Source: Spirosoma luteum DSM 19990
GTDB taxonomy: Bacteria; Bacteroidota; Bacteroidia; Cytophagales; Spirosomataceae
Direction: 5' to 3'
NCBI RefSeq assembly: GCF_000374065.1
Contig: NZ_KB893245.1
Location: 992,001 to 1,056,000 of the forward strand
DNA length: 64,000 nt
Each line of letters begins with the position of its first letter. Position 1 is the stretch's first letter. Below the pieces are notes generated by a model. It ran no database searches. It was not told where the DNA came from and saw only the letters and a list, made by a program, of their open reading frames with translations. A program made the translations under genes and the position numbers. Positions 2-46,384 of this stretch are shown here, in pieces.

Positions 2-397
2 GATCTGACGAATATTACCCGGATGCGGAATGCCTTCGGCAACCGCTTTAAGCTGATGGGCGGTGTGGACACATTGGCACTGGAAGCCCTGTTGCTGGGT
101 TGTGACGGCTGGGTGGGCGGTCTGGTGGACGCCTTCCCACAGGAAACCGTGGCTATTTACAACCTGGCCAAAGCGGGTCAGGTGGCCGAAGCGCTGGAAA
201 TATACCGCTGGTTTATGCCGTTATTGGAACTGGATATTCACCCAAAACTGGTACAATACATTAAACTGGCCGCTCAGGCAACGGGCATCGGTTCGGAACA
301 CGTGCGGGCACCCCGCCTGCCACTCATCGGCGCCGAACGCGAACAGGTGCTGGCTATCATTGAGAAAGCAATGGCGAACCGGCCGGTATTGGTATAA
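2..397 (+). CDS. DapA-family lyase, probable 1-pyrroline-4-hydroxy-2-carboxylate deaminase (5' end missing)
   Basis: Only the C-terminal 131 residues are present; the frame is open from base 2, so the gene starts before the window. The visible part has the C-terminal helices of the dihydrodipicolinate synthase/N-acetylneuraminate lyase family, including the LLGCDGWVGGL stretch that follows the active-site barrel. The catalytic lysine and tyrosine would lie in the missing part. The three functional neighbours downstream are a hydroxyproline epimerase, a FAD amino-acid oxidase and a 2-oxoglutarate semialdehyde dehydrogenase. I infer from them that this member deaminates 1-pyrroline-4-hydroxy-2-carboxylate to 2-oxoglutarate semialdehyde. 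Family membership is well supported; the substrate rests on context. Confidence 0.8.
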   Translation, partial: DLTNITRMRNAFGNRFKLMGGVDTLALEALLLGCDGWVGGLVDAFPQETVAIYNLAKAGQVAEALEIYRWFMPLLELDIHPKLVQYIKLAAQATGIGSEHVRAPRLPLIGAEREQVLAIIEKAMANRPVLV

Positions 398-477
398 AGA
401 GTGAACGTGTGAATGAGTGAAAGAGTGGCTGACACGCCAGCTTTCGCTTACTCACAATTTCGCTCATTCACTTTTTA
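398..477. repeat. Intergenic inverted octamer array (element A)
   Basis: The whole gap between the stop of the DapA-like gene and the epimerase gene is filled. Four tandem 8-base units read AGAGTGAA, CGTGTGAA, TGAGTGAA, AGAGTGGC (398-429). After a spacer of about 10 bases, complementary units run the other way (about 440-477), with several mismatches. It would form a long imperfect hairpin inside the operon. There is no U-run after it, so it does not look like a classical terminator. Confidence 0.75.
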
Positions 478-481
478 AATT

Positions 482-1486
482 ATGGCTGAATTTCATTTTT
501 TCTGCATCGATGCCCATACCTGCGGTAATCCGGTGCGGGTAGTAACGGGGGGCAGCATTCCGTTTTTGTCCGGCGAAAGCATGAGCGAGAAGCGGCAGCA
601 CTTCATGCGTGAGTACGACTGGATTCGGCAGGGGCTGATGTTCGAACCGAGGGGGCACGACATGATGTCGGGCAGCATTCTCTATCCACCTACCGACCCC
701 GCCAATGATGCGGGCGTATTGTTCATCGAAACATCGGGTTGTTTGCCCATGTGCGGGCACGGCACCATTGGGACCGTAACCGTAGCCATCGAGCAGAATC
801 TGATTACGCCCAAAACGCCGGGCATGCTGAATCTGGAAGTGCCCGCCGGACTGGTTCGAGCGGAGTACGTGCAGGAAGGGAAGAAGGTGACGTCAGTGAA
901 AATTACCAATATCAAATCGTATTTGGCAGCTGAAAAACTAACCGTTGAATGCCCGGACCTGGGCGAATTGACTGTCGATGTTGCCTACGGTGGTAATTTC
1001 TACGCTATCGTTGACCCGCAGCCTAATTTCCCCGGCCTGGAACACTATAAAGCCGAGCAACTTATTGGCTGGGCGCGGGAAATGCGCCAGCGTATGAACG
1101 AGCATTACACGTTTGTTCATCCCGAAAACCCAACCATCAATGGTCTGAGTCATATCCTCTGGACGGGGAAGCCACTTCAGGAAACCTCCACCGCCCGCAA
1201 CGCCGTTTTTTATGGCGATAAAGCTATCGATCGGTCGCCGTGTGGTACGGGAACGTCGGCCCGGATGGCGCAGTGGTATGCGCAGGGGCGATTGAAGCCG
1301 GGTGATGTCTTTGTACATGAGAGTATTATCGGGTCTATTTTCAACGGGCGAATCGAAGCCGAAACAGCCTTGGCAGGTCAACCCGCCATTGTACCCAGCA
1401 TTGAAGGATGGGCCAGAATACACGGGTATAATCACCTAATTCTGGACGACGAAGACCCCTACGTTCACGGCTTTCAGGTAATCTAA
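482..1486 (+). CDS. 4-hydroxyproline 2-epimerase (proline racemase family)
   Basis: A 334-residue protein of the proline racemase family, which inverts the alpha carbon with two cysteines acting as acid and base. Both are present: Cys91 in MCGHGTIG and Cys254 in DRSPCGTGTS. Keeping both separates it from the trans-3-hydroxyproline dehydratases, where the second cysteine is replaced by threonine. The neighbours (DapA-like deaminase, FAD oxidase, 2-oxoglutarate semialdehyde dehydrogenase) point to conversion of trans-4-hydroxy-L-proline to cis-4-hydroxy-D-proline rather than to proline racemisation. There is no signal peptide, so it is cytoplasmic. It starts just after repeat element A and is followed by element B. 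Confidence 0.88.
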   Translation: MAEFHFFCIDAHTCGNPVRVVTGGSIPFLSGESMSEKRQHFMREYDWIRQGLMFEPRGHDMMSGSILYPPTDPANDAGVLFIETSGCLPMCGHGTIGTVTVAIEQNLITPKTPGMLNLEVPAGLVRAEYVQEGKKVTSVKITNIKSYLAAEKLTVECPDLGELTVDVAYGGNFYAIVDPQPNFPGLEHYKAEQLIGWAREMRQRMNEHYTFVHPENPTINGLSHILWTGKPLQETSTARNAVFYGDKAIDRSPCGTGTSARMAQWYAQGRLKPGDVFVHESIIGSIFNGRIEAETALAGQPAIVPSIEGWARIHGYNHLILDDEDPYVHGFQVI

Positions 1487-1552
1487 AGAGTGAATGAGCG
1501 AAAGAGCGATTGCTCTGGATATCGCTCTTTCGCTCATTCACTCATTCGCTCT
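1487..1552. repeat. Intergenic inverted octamer array (element B), 24-bp hairpin
   Basis: The left arm has three 8-base units directly after the epimerase stop (1487-1510: AGAGTGAA, TGAGCGAA, AGAGCGAT). The right arm at 1521-1544 is complementary at 23 of 24 positions, across a 10-base loop. One further unit lies outside the stem (1545-1552), and the next start codon is at 1560. This is the cleanest member of the octamer family. It would place a strong stem-loop only 15 bases upstream of the oxidase start. Confidence 0.85.
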
Positions 1553-1559
1553 TTATAAA

Positions 1560-7228: not shown

Positions 7229-8950
7229 ATGATGCAGAAAAAAACAAAGCCCAGGTTAAAGGCACTAATACTTAGTGGCTGGGCAATCAGTTTATTGGCT
7301 CCCAATGCTACACTGGCGCAGACTACCCCTCCACAACCGGTTACGATTGAGGTGGATTTAAACCAGGACAAAGGCCCGTTAGACCCCATTTGGGCCTGGT
7401 TTGGGTACGACGAGCCAAACTATACGTACATGAAGGATGGCAAAAAACTGCTCACGGAAATTTCTCAGTTGAGTCGGATACCCGTCAATGTGCGGGCGCA
7501 CAGCCTGCTCGTAACCGGTGATGGTACTGCGGCCCTGAAATGGGGGTCGACCAATGCCTACACAGAGGATAAGCAGGGAAACCCGGTGTACGACTGGACG
7601 ATTGTCGACAAAATTTTCGATACGTACATTGAGCGGGGGATGAGGCCCATCGCCCAAATCGGGTTTATGCCCGAAGCACTATCCACAAATCCCCAACCGT
7701 ACCGCCATCACTGGAAACCCGGCGATAATTACAACGACATTTACCTGGGCTGGGCCTATCCGCCAAAGGATTATACCAAGTGGGGTGAACTGGTTTTTCA
7801 ATGGGTGAAGCACTCTGTGGCCCGGTACGGCCGTAAAGAGGTAGAAAGCTGGTACTGGGAGTTATGGAATGAGCCGAACATCAGTTACTGGAAAGGTACT
7901 ACCGACGAGTACATTAAGCTGTACGATTACACCGCCGATGCTGTGAAAAGAGCGTTGCCAACGGCTAAAATGGGTGGTCCTGAAGTAACCGGACCCAACT
8001 GGGACGTGTCGGCCAAATTTTTTCGGGCTTTCATGGACCACGTTGTCAGTGGGAAAAACTATGTAACGGGTAAAACGGGTTCGCCCATCGATTTCATTAC
8101 GTTTCACGCCAAAGGGGCTCCCAAACTGGTGGATGGGCATGTGCAGATGAACATGGGCACGCAACTCCGCGATATTGATAAGGGCTTTGAAATCGTAGCC
8201 TCGTACCCGACGCTGAAAAACCTGCCCATCATCATCGGGGAATCGGACCCGGAGGGGTGTGCGGCCTGTTCAGAAGATATGAGTCCGCAAAACGCCTATC
8301 GGAATGGCACCATGTACTCTAGCTATACAGCGGCCTCCTTTGCCCGTAAGTATGATTTAGCGCAGGCGCGTGGCGTCAATTTAGCGGGTGCCGTTACCTG
8401 GGCGTTTGAATTCGAAGACCAGGCCTGGTTTCGGGGTTTCCGCGATTTAGCCACGAACGGAGTAGATAAGCCGGTACTGAACGTGTTTCGGATGTTTGGT
8501 ATGATGACCGGCAACCGGGTAGGAGTGAAAAACGGTCTGGCGTACGACTACGCCCGTATTCGGGACCAGAGCGTGCGGGCCGAGGCCGACATCAACGCCC
8601 TGGCGACTAAGGACGCTAAAACAGCCGCCGTCATGGTCTGGAATTACCACGACGATAACCTGCCAGCTTCCGATACGCCCGTTTCTATTCGTATTTCGGG
8701 TGTACCCGTTCAACGGGTTTTGGTTCAGCATTACCGTATCGATAAGCAGTTCAGCAATTCGTACGAAGCCTGGAAAAAGATGGGATCGCCCAAAACGCCG
8801 ACCTCTGAGCAGATAACCGAACTGGAAAAAGCCGGACAACTCCAGTTACTTACCTCGCCCGAATGGGTAACCGTAAAGGACGGCAACGTAATGCTCACTA
8901 TGGCATTGCCGCGTCAGGGTGTATCATTGTTGAAACTTTCCTGGGAGTAA
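7229..8950 (+). CDS. Exported glycoside hydrolase family 39-like protein
   Basis: A 573-residue protein with a signal peptide ending near NATLAQ, then a TIM-barrel glycosidase domain and a beta-rich C-terminal part. The acid/base glutamate is in WNEPNISYW (Glu215) and a likely nucleophile is Glu338 in IIIGESDPEG; both follow clan GH-A geometry. GH39 includes beta-xylosidases and alpha-L-iduronidases, so a xylan- or uronide-directed role is likely but not fixed. A cysteine pair (CAAC) follows the nucleophile strand. Starts at 7229 and 7232 are equivalent. Probably co-transcribed with the GH16 gene. Confidence 0.83.
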   Translation: MMQKKTKPRLKALILSGWAISLLAPNATLAQTTPPQPVTIEVDLNQDKGPLDPIWAWFGYDEPNYTYMKDGKKLLTEISQLSRIPVNVRAHSLLVTGDGTAALKWGSTNAYTEDKQGNPVYDWTIVDKIFDTYIERGMRPIAQIGFMPEALSTNPQPYRHHWKPGDNYNDIYLGWAYPPKDYTKWGELVFQWVKHSVARYGRKEVESWYWELWNEPNISYWKGTTDEYIKLYDYTADAVKRALPTAKMGGPEVTGPNWDVSAKFFRAFMDHVVSGKNYVTGKTGSPIDFITFHAKGAPKLVDGHVQMNMGTQLRDIDKGFEIVASYPTLKNLPIIIGESDPEGCAACSEDMSPQNAYRNGTMYSSYTAASFARKYDLAQARGVNLAGAVTWAFEFEDQAWFRGFRDLATNGVDKPVLNVFRMFGMMTGNRVGVKNGLAYDYARIRDQSVRAEADINALATKDAKTAAVMVWNYHDDNLPASDTPVSIRISGVPVQRVLVQHYRIDKQFSNSYEAWKKMGSPKTPTSEQITELEKAGQLQLLTSPEWVTVKDGNVMLTMALPRQGVSLLKLSWE

Positions 8951-19941: not shown

Positions 19942-20076
19942 GATGCACTGAGAGAATAATAATTAATAGTAACCACTTGTATGGTTACCGATAGTGGTTA
20001 AAATGACACGCTTTCTAAACGAGACTACTTATAATAAGCACAATATGTAGTTGTTCTACTACTGTAAAAGAGCAAA

Positions 20077-20125
20077 AGAGTGAACGAGTTGGAACCTATA
20101 GGGTAGGTTTTCACTCGTTCACTCT
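20077..20125. repeat. Intergenic inverted octamer array (element D)
   Basis: A 13-bp perfect stem pairs AGAGTGAACGAGT (20077-20089) with its complement at 20113-20125. An inner stem, AACCTA with TAGGTT, lies in the loop. Degenerate units continue outside (AAAGAGCA on the left). It lies within the operon between susD and the isomerase gene, ending 15 bases from the susD stop, and may set the lower expression of the enzymes relative to SusC/SusD. Confidence 0.75.
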
Positions 20126-20140
20126 TCGTGCATTCAGTTA

Positions 20141-44148: not shown

Positions 44149-44265
44149 CCCAACTTTCTACCAGAAGCAGGAAGGGCCGATAAACGACTAAAGATAGCTG
44201 GTTAAATGCTATTTTTCGGCTTCCTTCCGTATGTCCGTGTTGCCAACGATTTCCAAATTCCTGTT

Positions 44266-45141
44266 ATGTCTGTTCTAGTTAACAAAGATTCAAAAATTAT
44301 CGTCCAGGGCTTCACCGGCTCAGAAGGCAGTTTTCATGCTCAGCAGATGATTGAATACGGCACTAACGTTGTTGGTGGGGTAACGCCGGGAAAAGGAGGG
44401 CAAACGCACCTCGACCGCCCTGTTTTCAATACAGTTCAGCAGGCTGTTGATCAGGCTGGCGCCAATGTATCCATCATTTTTGTGCCGCCTGCTTTTGCTG
44501 CCGATGCTATTATGGAGGCTGCAGAAGCGGGTATAAATGTGATTATCTGCATTACGGAAGGTATTCCAACGGAAGATATGGTAGCGGTGAAAAACTACCT
44601 GAACGACAAAGATGTGACGCTGATCGGGCCCAACTGCCCCGGTGTCATGACCGCCGAAGAATGTAAAGTAGGAATCATGCCCGGCTTTATTTTCAAGAAA
44701 GGGCGTATCGGAATCGTTTCCAAGTCGGGTACATTAACCTACGAAGCTGTTGACCAGCTTACCAAAGCTGGTCTTGGACAATCGACAGCTATTGGTATCG
44801 GTGGCGACCCAATTATTGGTACCACTACCAAGCAGGCAGTTGAACTTCTTATGAACGATCCGGAAACCGATGCTATCGTTATGATTGGCGAAATAGGTGG
44901 CGGCATGGAAGCAGAGGCTGCTAACTGGATCAAGGCTGATGGCAATCGTAAACCCGTTGTTGGTTTCATTGCCGGACAAACGGCCCCCAAGGGTCGTCGG
45001 ATGGGCCATGCCGGTGCTATTGTTGGTGGCGCAGATGATACAGCAGCCGCCAAAATGGCTATTATGCGGGAGTGTGGTATCCACGTAGTTGAATCACCCG
45101 CTCTTATCGGTGATACAATGCTGAAGGCGCTGGGGAAATAA
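44266..45141 (+). CDS. sucD: Succinyl-CoA synthetase alpha subunit
   Basis: A 291-residue subunit. The CoA-binding N-terminal domain reads [22 protein letters not shown]. The phosphohistidine loop is [13 protein letters not shown] near the C-terminus. The start at 44266 ([10 protein letters not shown]) is standard; 20 more codons upstream are open but not family-like. With the beta subunit, which is not in the window, it makes ATP or GTP from succinyl-CoA in the TCA cycle. Repeat element F follows the stop. Confidence 0.96.
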
Positions 45142-45148
45142 ATTCTAA

Positions 45149-45270
45149 AGAGCGAAAGAGCGAATGAATGAAAGAGCGAAAGAGCGGCCAACGATAACCA
45201 GAATAACTAGTGACTATTTCCGTGACGCTCTTTCACTCTTTTTTACTCTTTCACTTTTTTACTCTTTCGC
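45149..45270. repeat. Inverted octamer array partly inside a coding region (element F)
   Basis: Five 8-base units (AGAGCGAA, AGAGCGAA, TGAATGAA, AGAGCGAA, AGAGCGGC) fill 45149-45188. Facing units (CGCTCTTT, CACTCTTT, TTTACTCT and similar) fill about 45226-45270. The inner stem, 45173-45186 with 45226-45239, has a single G-T wobble. The ATG of the DUF4271 gene lies within the left array, and the right array is translated as its hydrophobic signal sequence. Confidence 0.8.
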
Positions 45271-46384
45271 CACTGCCCAACCTCGCCAGACAGGTATTGG
45301 ACCGGGTGAAACATACTATCCCGTTCACAATTTTCACGACGACTTTCAGGTGTACGACGAAAGGGCAAAAGCTTACGTACCCTACATCGTTGAGAAACAT
45401 GCCGACCAAACAGCCCTGAGCGTATATGTGGACCTGGAGAGTAATCGGCACTACAGCCTGCTCATTGCAACCCGGCAAGACGGATACCTGTTTATCAACG
45501 CTGCCCTTAAACGAAAACTCCGTGCCGAACGCTGGCAGGTACTAAACATCGATAGCCTGTATAAGGTCTATCGTCAGCCAGAACTATTCCTCACCATCTA
45601 CGGCAGTCCCGGCCTGGACAATAAACAATTATTTATTGGTTACCCAAAATCCGCAACGCAGACACCCGTTCTGTTGCGGGATGATAATTTGAGTGTACGC
45701 CCCCGTCCCAGCACTATATACAAAGACTTTCTGGGACTGGGTTTATTGTTTTTATTGACCACCCACAGTTTTCTGTTTACATTTTATCGGCGCGCTTTTT
45801 TGCGATTTTATAACCTGCGTGATCTATTATCTGTCCGGTCACAGGACGAATCGTTTCTAATTAATCGTCCATTGAGTGGTGCCAATACCCTTTTTGCCCT
45901 CAATCTGAGTTTTGTCATTGCTTATCTGATTGTCTTCTTGCAGAGCCTGAACTTAGCGGTGTTTACATCGGGGACATTGTTAATAACGGGGCAAAATATA
46001 GGTGGGTTGTTGAGTGAGTTTTTTCTGCTGAGTGGTGTCACCTTCTTAAGTCTTCTGGGTAAGTATATCTCTCTGGAGGTGATGGGGGGGCTGTATAAGT
46101 TGCAGGAGGTGGTCAACATTCACTATTTCAAAATACTACAGTCATCCCTATTATTTTTTACGTTTCTAACTCTTCTACTATCCATACTGACGTACAATAC
46201 CTGGGTCGCATCATGGTCGCAGGAAGTCTTGTTGGTGTCAGTAGTTATGTTTTATGCTGCCCGCTTAACCCTGCTATACTTCGTCATACGTAGCCTTGAG
46301 CCTATCAAAAATCTTTATTTATTTTCGTACCTTTGTATCGTCGAATTGATTCCACTAATCATTGGTTTGCGTTTTGCGCTATGA
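45164..46384 (+). CDS. DUF4271 membrane protein with repeat-derived signal peptide
   Basis: A 406-residue protein. A signal peptide with core ALSLFFTLSLFYSFA ends near ATA-Q; it and the start codon are encoded by repeat element F. A periplasmic part of about 150 residues follows (to about residue 185). The C-terminal half is DUF4271 with about seven membrane helices, including LGLLFLLTTHSFLFTFYRR and LYFVIRSLEPIKNLYLFSYLC. DUF4271 genes commonly precede hemD in Bacteroidota, as here (75 bases). The function is unknown. No other in-frame ATG gives a signal peptide. Confidence 0.82.
   Translation: MNERAKERPTITRITSDYFRDALSLFFTLSLFYSFATAQPRQTGIGPGETYYPVHNFHDDFQVYDERAKAYVPYIVEKHADQTALSVYVDLESNRHYSLLIATRQDGYLFINAALKRKLRAERWQVLNIDSLYKVYRQPELFLTIYGSPGLDNKQLFIGYPKSATQTPVLLRDDNLSVRPRPSTIYKDFLGLGLLFLLTTHSFLFTFYRRAFLRFYNLRDLLSVRSQDESFLINRPLSGANTLFALNLSFVIAYLIVFLQSLNLAVFTSGTLLITGQNIGGLLSEFFLLSGVTFLSLLGKYISLEVMGGLYKLQEVVNIHYFKILQSSLLFFTFLTLLLSILTYNTWVASWSQEVLLVSVVMFYAARLTLLYFVIRSLEPIKNLYLFSYLCIVELIPLIIGLRFAL

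Follow-up and report, generated by a model that had tools for sequence, protein, structure and literature searches.

Introduction

Repeats that are read as protein, short arrays between genes and signal peptides gained as whole blocks are all already known. The case described here is an inverted array of octamers between sucD and a gene for a DUF4271 protein in Spirosoma luteum DSM 19990; it lies within a window of 64,000 nucleotides (the whole stretch analysed, positions 992001-1056000 of the C1 contig of a 6.6-Mb genome; coordinates are those of the window unless prefixed with C1, C22 or C35), and it very probably also supplies the DUF4271 gene with its start codon and its predicted export signal. 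The case bears on the origin of new signal peptides, as the source sequence is visible here and recurs in three genes, and the arithmetic of an 8-nt period set against a 3-nt codon explains how the same leader can come out of the repeat in any frame.

The closest described systems each resemble this array in one respect. The Rickettsia palindromic elements (RPEs; PMC10969869) are palindromic repeats of about 150 bp, with several element families per genome, which are inserted inside existing open reading frames (ORFs) and read in frame within host proteins. The Spirosoma array, by comparison, consists of 8-nt tandem units, spans a gene junction instead of sitting inside an existing ORF, and carries the start codon, the n-region and the core of a leader. 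The palindromic amphipathic repeat coding elements (PARCELs) come close as dyad-symmetric DNA repeats that encode a patterned hydrophobic peptide and are linked to membrane proteins, but they (PMC2996958) are 25-residue tandem protein domains within ORFs, unlike the intergenic arrays and leaders of Spirosoma. Intergenic arrays of TAACTGA heptamers, some of them in Bacteroidetes, are likewise made of short tandem units at junctions near start and stop codons; they are reported (PMC4679880) as direct repeats (one inverted case is noted) proposed as regulator binding sites, and the forward repeats carry stops in all three frames, whereas the pyrimidine arm of the Spirosoma octamer is mostly open in all of them. 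In Enterobacterales, finally, leaders were acquired as whole N-terminal blocks, and that study (PMC5952966) reports no transposable elements near the N-termini of gained or lost leaders; in the Spirosoma case, by comparison, the source sequence is visible. Among the matches listed for the open-access literature, none concerned Spirosoma octamer hairpin arrays, signal peptides from intergenic repeats or leaders made by a gene-junction array, and the two for DUF4271 were, by title, on animals.

The sucD/DUF4271 Junction

The gap between sucD (Pfam matches CoA_binding, 2.4e-30, and Ligase_CoA, 2.5e-23; stop codon TAA at 45139-45141) and the DUF4271 gene is filled by the inverted array (AAAGAGCG... 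/ ...CTCTTTCA; Table 1), which belongs to the octamer inverted-array family of this genome: a purine arm of the pattern GAAHGAGY, then a pyrimidine arm, at a gene junction. As RNA, the array is predicted to fold into a hairpin with a minimum free energy of -39 kcal/mol (z -4.4), a value equalled by 0 of 200 shuffles.

The DUF4271 reading frame is open from 45149, and the initial annotation, made from the letters of this stretch, had placed its start at an ATG inside the left arm. A start scan bears this out, the ATG at 45164 being the sole in-frame ATG, GTG or TTG that follows the upstream stop and precedes the conserved region. A start after 45270, the alternative named there, is excluded for these three codons: the next in-frame candidate is a GTG at 45350 (residue V63), 79 nt past the array, and since the invariant columns in an alignment of 24 loci start at G44 and go on with G46, P47 and D60, all ahead of V63, a start past the array would remove these residues. 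From 45164, the left arm is read as charged residues (RAKERMNERAKER) and the right arm, as had been noticed, as a hydrophobic leader (codons 22-36, ALSLFFTLSLFYSFA) followed by TA/Q, where the slash marks the predicted cleavage site.

Type I Sec signals combine a positively charged n-region, a hydrophobic core and an A-x-A cleavage site; leaders that end in A-x-A/Q are Sec signals, while those with a lipobox, which ends in Cys after the hydrophobic core, are lipoprotein signals. By eye, the DUF4271 leader displays the type I pattern, MNERAKERPTITRITSDYFRD-ALSLFFTLSLFYSFATA/Q, and we infer from its sequence that it would be cleaved and the protein exported. The soluble-looking stretch described ahead of the membrane helices is in line with a low-confidence AlphaFold model (mean pLDDT 60.8), which is beta-rich over residues 54-159 and has long helices from 184 onward; the DUF4271 domain itself covers residues 193-404 (Pfam 1.3e-15).

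DUF4271 Leaders across Relatives

A family search found a DUF4271 match in 149 of 150 genomes, and 34 loci from Spirosoma and 30 from other genera were examined. Protein matching pointed to five named relatives, Spirosoma spitsbergense, S. validum, S. utsteinense, S. endophyticum and Fibrisoma montanum. The gene is present in 34 of 36 Spirosoma genomes, both misses being genomes that are 80-82% complete. The comparison with homologues, which the initial annotation had suggested, puts 28 of the 34 Spirosoma loci (fold z -3.0 to -18.2) into the class whose leader runs through an arm of the hairpin behind sucD; three others have a small terminator-like hairpin, then an ATG and an ordinary leader (L021, L023, L027), and three a decayed hairpin (L024, L025, L029), a hydrophobic leader-like stretch being present in all 34. 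The other genera divide into nine arm-encoded loci, eight in which the hairpin is followed by a start and an ordinary leader (a class that is less sure for L069, L074 and L093, where further in-frame starts fall within the hairpin or ahead of it) and 13 with neither pattern, most of which combine an ordinary leader with a terminator-like hairpin or with no hairpin. An automatic filter kept all 37 arm-encoded loci together with L024, L027, L029, L072, L073 and L088.

In a tree of the 64 mature proteins, all eight loci with the hairpin before the start fall into a single clade (support 100/98). Its sister clade contains every arm-encoded locus, and on this tree arm-encoding takes 6 changes versus a mean of 20.9 for shuffled labels. 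The simplest story is a single gain of arm-encoding followed by several losses, with a weakly supported basal branch (80/28).

The repeat types themselves vary among loci. Several octamers occur, some octamer arrays have CCGCAACGG or CGCCGAAGCGG nested in them as a module, and the L028 array consists of a heptamer, AAAAATG, with 83+77 matches in its own genome (reversed-pattern control 6+10) and 1 to 8 in four other Spirosoma genomes. A local unit type that matches the genome's own type is clear for this heptamer only, and counts of A-, T- and C-type octamers revealed, by eye, no general rule linking local and genome unit types. Short modules (such as GTGCCGCAACGGATGTTGA, GGAACGCCGAAGCGGAATG or, in L002, GATCGGGTCGCCGAACCGGAAGG) are also seen within the arrays of L002, L003, L007, L011, L013, L015, L016, L026 and L030; in L002, L013 and L015 they stand on both arms, and they resemble further palindromic elements.

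Pattern matches per genome number 18 to 592 in the 28 arm-encoded species (at least 33 in 27 of them) and 7, 13, 14, 15, 20 and 130 in the six others, a difference with a Fisher p of 1.3e-4 at a cut picked after the counts were known. In four phylogenetically independent pairs, a mean of 2.9 agree, 0 disagree and 1.1 tie (sign test, median p 0.25), and the idea that the array load of a genome predicts the state of its arm is a lead only.

Frame and Octamer Content of the Leaders

The frame is kept in the arm-encoded loci. Ahead of the right arm, 36 of the 37 loci have a start with an open frame in the frame of the protein, whereas each of the other two frames has one in 17 and 11 of the 37 loci, respectively; for 15 other arrays, read in both directions and in three frames, the figure is 44 of 90. 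The leaders also match the octamer family: a family score of at least 12 is reached by 26 of the 34 DUF4271 leaders, 25 of which have a partner arm, whereas of 776 other C1 genes 13 carry an octamer tract within the first 84 nt. The two sides of this comparison are not exactly alike, as the leader windows end at the mature start for the octamer-coded genes (three in all, see below), while those of the 776 take the start of the longest ORF as their first position. By eye, about nine of these 13 are longest ORFs that run into an array before a better ATG.

Arithmetic and Distribution of the Octamer Family

The initial annotation had pointed out that a period of 8 shifts the frame at each unit. 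This is harmless to the right arm: because 8 mod 3 is 2, all three frames of a perfect octamer array run through one and the same 8-residue cycle, which is ALSLFRSF for a perfect GCTCTTTC array and TLSLFHSF for a perfect ACTCTTTC array. The complementary arms read ERAKERKS in the case of GCTCTTTC and contain one stop per cycle in that of ACTCTTTC; an inverted array thus spells a charged stretch and then a hydrophobic one. That the whole array might be frame-proof was considered and rejected, as only 28 of 74 off-frames hold a start in an open frame, because GAGTGAAA units contain TGA.

Hydrophobicity, which had been traced to the repeat itself, follows from it partly but not wholly. In 31 other arms (15 other arrays in both directions and the reverse direction of this array), stops occur in 3 of 93 arm-frames (11 of 90 once the arms are fold-derived), versus 36% of 3000 random genomic 36-mers, and the 9-residue Kyte-Doolittle maximum has a median of 1.03, versus 0.04 for random DNA. 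For the DUF4271 family, the median over the arms of 43 loci (the 37 arm-encoded ones plus six more) is 2.34. Raw arrays are thus only mildly hydrophobic and the DUF4271 arms more so, so that the leader arms have been tuned; the raw repeat is a head start for a leader, not a complete one.

On the C1 contig, 22 octamer arms have purines on the top strand and 20 have pyrimidines, versus 3 in a shuffled control (one mononucleotide-shuffled copy of the contig, scanned on a single strand). Paired arrays number 16, of which 13 lie between co-directional genes, two between divergent and one between convergent genes; 12 of the 13 co-directional arrays overlap the upstream stop or begin at most 5 nt from it. 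In all 16 the purine arm comes first, so that purine precedes pyrimidine on both strands. Twelve of the 17 genes downstream of C1 arrays start 4-9 nt past the array, ten of them with ATG, and in eight of the 17, DUF4271 not counted, an in-frame start falls within the array or overlaps it, so that automatic start calls may err in either direction. The family is one of genome-wide inverted arrays at gene junctions, usually running from the upstream stop to a few bases before the next start, and its arm pattern was found in 36 of 36 Spirosoma genomes.

Further Octamer-Coded Leaders

Among the pattern matches listed elsewhere in the genome, 33 arrays (purine-first pairs only) were sampled, and they yielded leaders in two further proteins with an exported look. 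The first (G000:C22:56957-58273, locus L186, with L187-L215 in relatives) is a tetratricopeptide repeat (TPR) lipoprotein with the leader ...FALSLFLMA/CNDDNRQ, in which the Cys follows the hydrophobic core; the pattern C..[DEN][DNE]RQ occurs in 28 of 30 loci, and L191 and L209, which have no Cys motif, were excluded. In L191 the leader is, by eye, read through a different hairpin. An octamer arm lies in the signal of 17 of the 28 loci, 15 of them with a partner arm upstream, and a cut of fold z -2.5 and 19 paired leader bases leaves only 11 of the 28; in these 11 strong-fold loci the frame test gives 11 of 11 in the protein frame versus 8 of 22 in the others. Ordinary lipoprotein leaders (L203, L205, L206, L207, L212, L213, L215) have fold z of -0.7 to 1.3. 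One and the same gene is thus seen both ways in Spirosoma, with its signal octamer-coded in 17 of 28 loci and coded otherwise in the rest.

The second (G000:C35:211871-213595, L216-L245), an unassigned protein, has HVGSSGV at the mature start, and 14 of its 30 leaders are octamer-coded. A partner arm is present in two loci only, in this genome and in a sister (L217), and the hairpin z is -0.9 to 1.8 in the other 28. Such partnerless octamer leaders, together with the six Spirosoma species whose DUF4271 locus has a decayed hairpin or an ordinary leader, indicate that hairpin and signal are separable and that export would draw on the repeat and not on the hairpin. A gene on the same contig as the DUF4271 locus (G000:C1:538700-539560) has an octamer-rich leader, MKKSFVLTLLFTLSLTYSFTFAQ, without a partner arm, and is possibly a fourth case.

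Alternative Explanations and Proposed Mechanism

The strongest alternative, a serious one whose probability falls somewhat short of even, is that the array is first of all a transcription device: a terminator of sucD, an attenuator or an mRNA-stabilising hairpin, in which translation of the leader is tolerated, opens the hairpin and couples DUF4271 to sucD. Hairpins can be opened by ribosomes, and many outgroup loci have, by eye, a terminator-like hairpin after sucD with the DUF4271 start behind it. The location of most C1 arrays between co-directional genes, close to the upstream stop, fits this explanation, as does the finding that 24 of the 37 arm-encoded loci have all their in-frame starts within the left arm or ahead of it (12 have a start in the loop and L006 has none). 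However, a scan for intrinsic terminators (a G+C-rich stem with a U run directly after), limited to loops of 3-8 nt, found none at the array, where the longest T run within the leader is 6; moreover, such a device is compatible with the leader role and would concern an additional function of the same DNA.

A second alternative, which seems rather unlikely, is that the repeat was recruited and not the hairpin, octamer tracts arising in leaders alone and the inverted partner being either added later by template switching or lost. The C35 gene, with its mostly partnerless octamer leaders, and the octamer-rich leader of C1:538700-539560 speak for it, but the partner is present in 25 of 26 octamer leaders of DUF4271 and in 15 of 17 of the lipoprotein, and the sister clade of DUF4271 loci, where the hairpin stands before the start, suggests that the hairpin came first there.

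Signal-coding DNA is generally T- and C-rich, and it might pair with upstream DNA by accident. Among 159 crude signal-like genes on C1 (selected by a rule whose hydropathy cut the DUF4271 gene falls below, so that it stands outside this set), pairing of the last 66 leader bases with upstream DNA has a median of 14, a 99th percentile of 36.7 and a maximum of 39, reached by two genes; the DUF4271 locus has 37 paired bases by a slightly different count, and 27 of the 37 arm-encoded loci (range 16-53) exceed this value. An ordinary leader whose Leu/Phe/Ser-rich, pyrimidine-rich code merely pairs by chance with purine-rich DNA upstream is very improbable and largely refuted, as the leaders match the octamer family beyond mere pyrimidine richness and that of L028 matches a heptamer abundant in its own genome and scarce in four others.

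The preferred explanation, that the junction hairpin doubles as start and export signal of the DUF4271 gene, has several points weighing against it. The class of arm-encoded loci was assigned by an analyst reading sequence and fold, not by a blind rule. The frame comparison (36 of 37 versus 28 of 74, Fisher p 1.5e-10) is uncorrected for shared ancestry, and a comparison of arm hydropathy with that of a palindromised arm (observed higher in 34 of 43 loci, lower in six and equal in three, versus 49 higher and 32 lower of 90 for other arrays) is confounded, its six loci that are not arm-encoded all going one way, and carries little weight here. The exclusion of later starts covers ATG, GTG and TTG, rare starts such as ATA falling outside it, and one arm-encoded locus, L006 (genome G008), has no in-frame start, for which an error in sequencing, a frameshift or slippage could account; its leader contains nine T in a row. 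The leader of S. luteum is itself weakly hydrophobic, its best 9-residue hydropathy of 2.06 being the second lowest among the 37. Six of the 17 octamer-coded lipoprotein leaders (L192, L198, L201, L202, L210, L211) have a fold z above -2, and the left arm is absent from 12 of the 14 octamer-coded leaders of the C35 gene, so that a leader can do without the hairpin. The initial idea that one piece of DNA is both an RNA hairpin and the code of an export signal is supported as an interpretation; its hairpin part is a prediction, and covariation between the arms is weak among close relatives (13 compensated versus 80 broken pairs in 11 comparisons).

No usable start follows the array. If the junction array does act as start and export signal, translation would begin in the left arm, at an ATG or GTG from GAATGAGC- or GAGTGAAA-type units; the ribosome would pass the loop and then translate the pyrimidine arm into the hydrophobic core of a Sec signal peptide, to be cleaved directly after the array at A-x-A/Q. 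The inverted purine/pyrimidine array would spell a stretch charged with Lys, Arg and Glu and then one of Leu, Phe, Ser and Ala, and a pyrimidine arm whose cycle (LFRSFALS, LFHSFTLS) is identical across frames would offer a ready-made, frame-tolerant leader for selection to tune afterwards. The ancestral sucD may have ended in a terminator-like hairpin, as in the outgroups, of which the present hairpin is probably the successor; the DUF4271 start would have shifted back into it, and selection would then have preserved the start, the open frame and the hydrophobicity of the arm. A broader and more tentative proposal, which we regard as possible but somewhat doubtful, is that the genome-wide octamer hairpins form a portable, frame-independent reservoir of export signals, where a start that slips into an array provides its gene with a charged n-region plus a hydrophobic core in any frame. 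Were this true, the spread of arrays alone could move proteins into the export route or keep them there, and species could substitute their own repeat type.

Features of the Window and Other Arrays

Table 1. Coordinates of the sucD/DUF4271 junction and of other octamer arrays in the window.
Feature	Position	Strand	Basis
Upstream gene sucD (alpha subunit of succinyl-CoA ligase), longest ORF	44206..45141	+	ORF and Pfam
Left (purine) arm, five octamers AAAGAGCG/AATGAATG	45147..45186	+	repeat scan
Sole in-frame ATG/GTG/TTG before the conserved region of the DUF4271 gene, within the left arm	45164..45166	+	ORF/start scan
Predicted signal peptide, residues 1-38, cleavage-like ATA/Q by eye	45164..45277	+	translation
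Inter-arm loop, 39 nt	45187..45225	+	fold, array scan
Right (pyrimidine) arm, CTCTTTCA-type octamers	45226..45270	+	repeat scan
Predicted signal peptide: hydrophobic core read from the right arm, codons 22-36 (ALSLFFTLSLFYSFA)	45227..45271	+	translation, hydropathy
Mature DUF4271 protein including stop: beta-rich stretch, then membrane domain	45278..46384	+	Pfam, low-confidence model
Octamer hairpin array of the same kind at a gene junction; next ATG 5 nt past the array	396..476		array scan
Octamer hairpin array; open frame MSERAIALDIALSLIHSFALYK continues into an ATG 5 nt past the array	1485..1554		array scan
Shorter octamer hairpin array, minus-strand genes	20067..20126		array scan

Two arrays outside the window may be added. 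At C1:750167-750260, the gene downstream of an array has a single start nearby, a TTG given by the final bases of that array; the N-terminus of this gene resembles, by eye, that of an RsgA-type GTPase. In a related genus, a TGAATAA heptamer array of more than 400 nt runs from position 8449 to at least 8886 of G063:C335.
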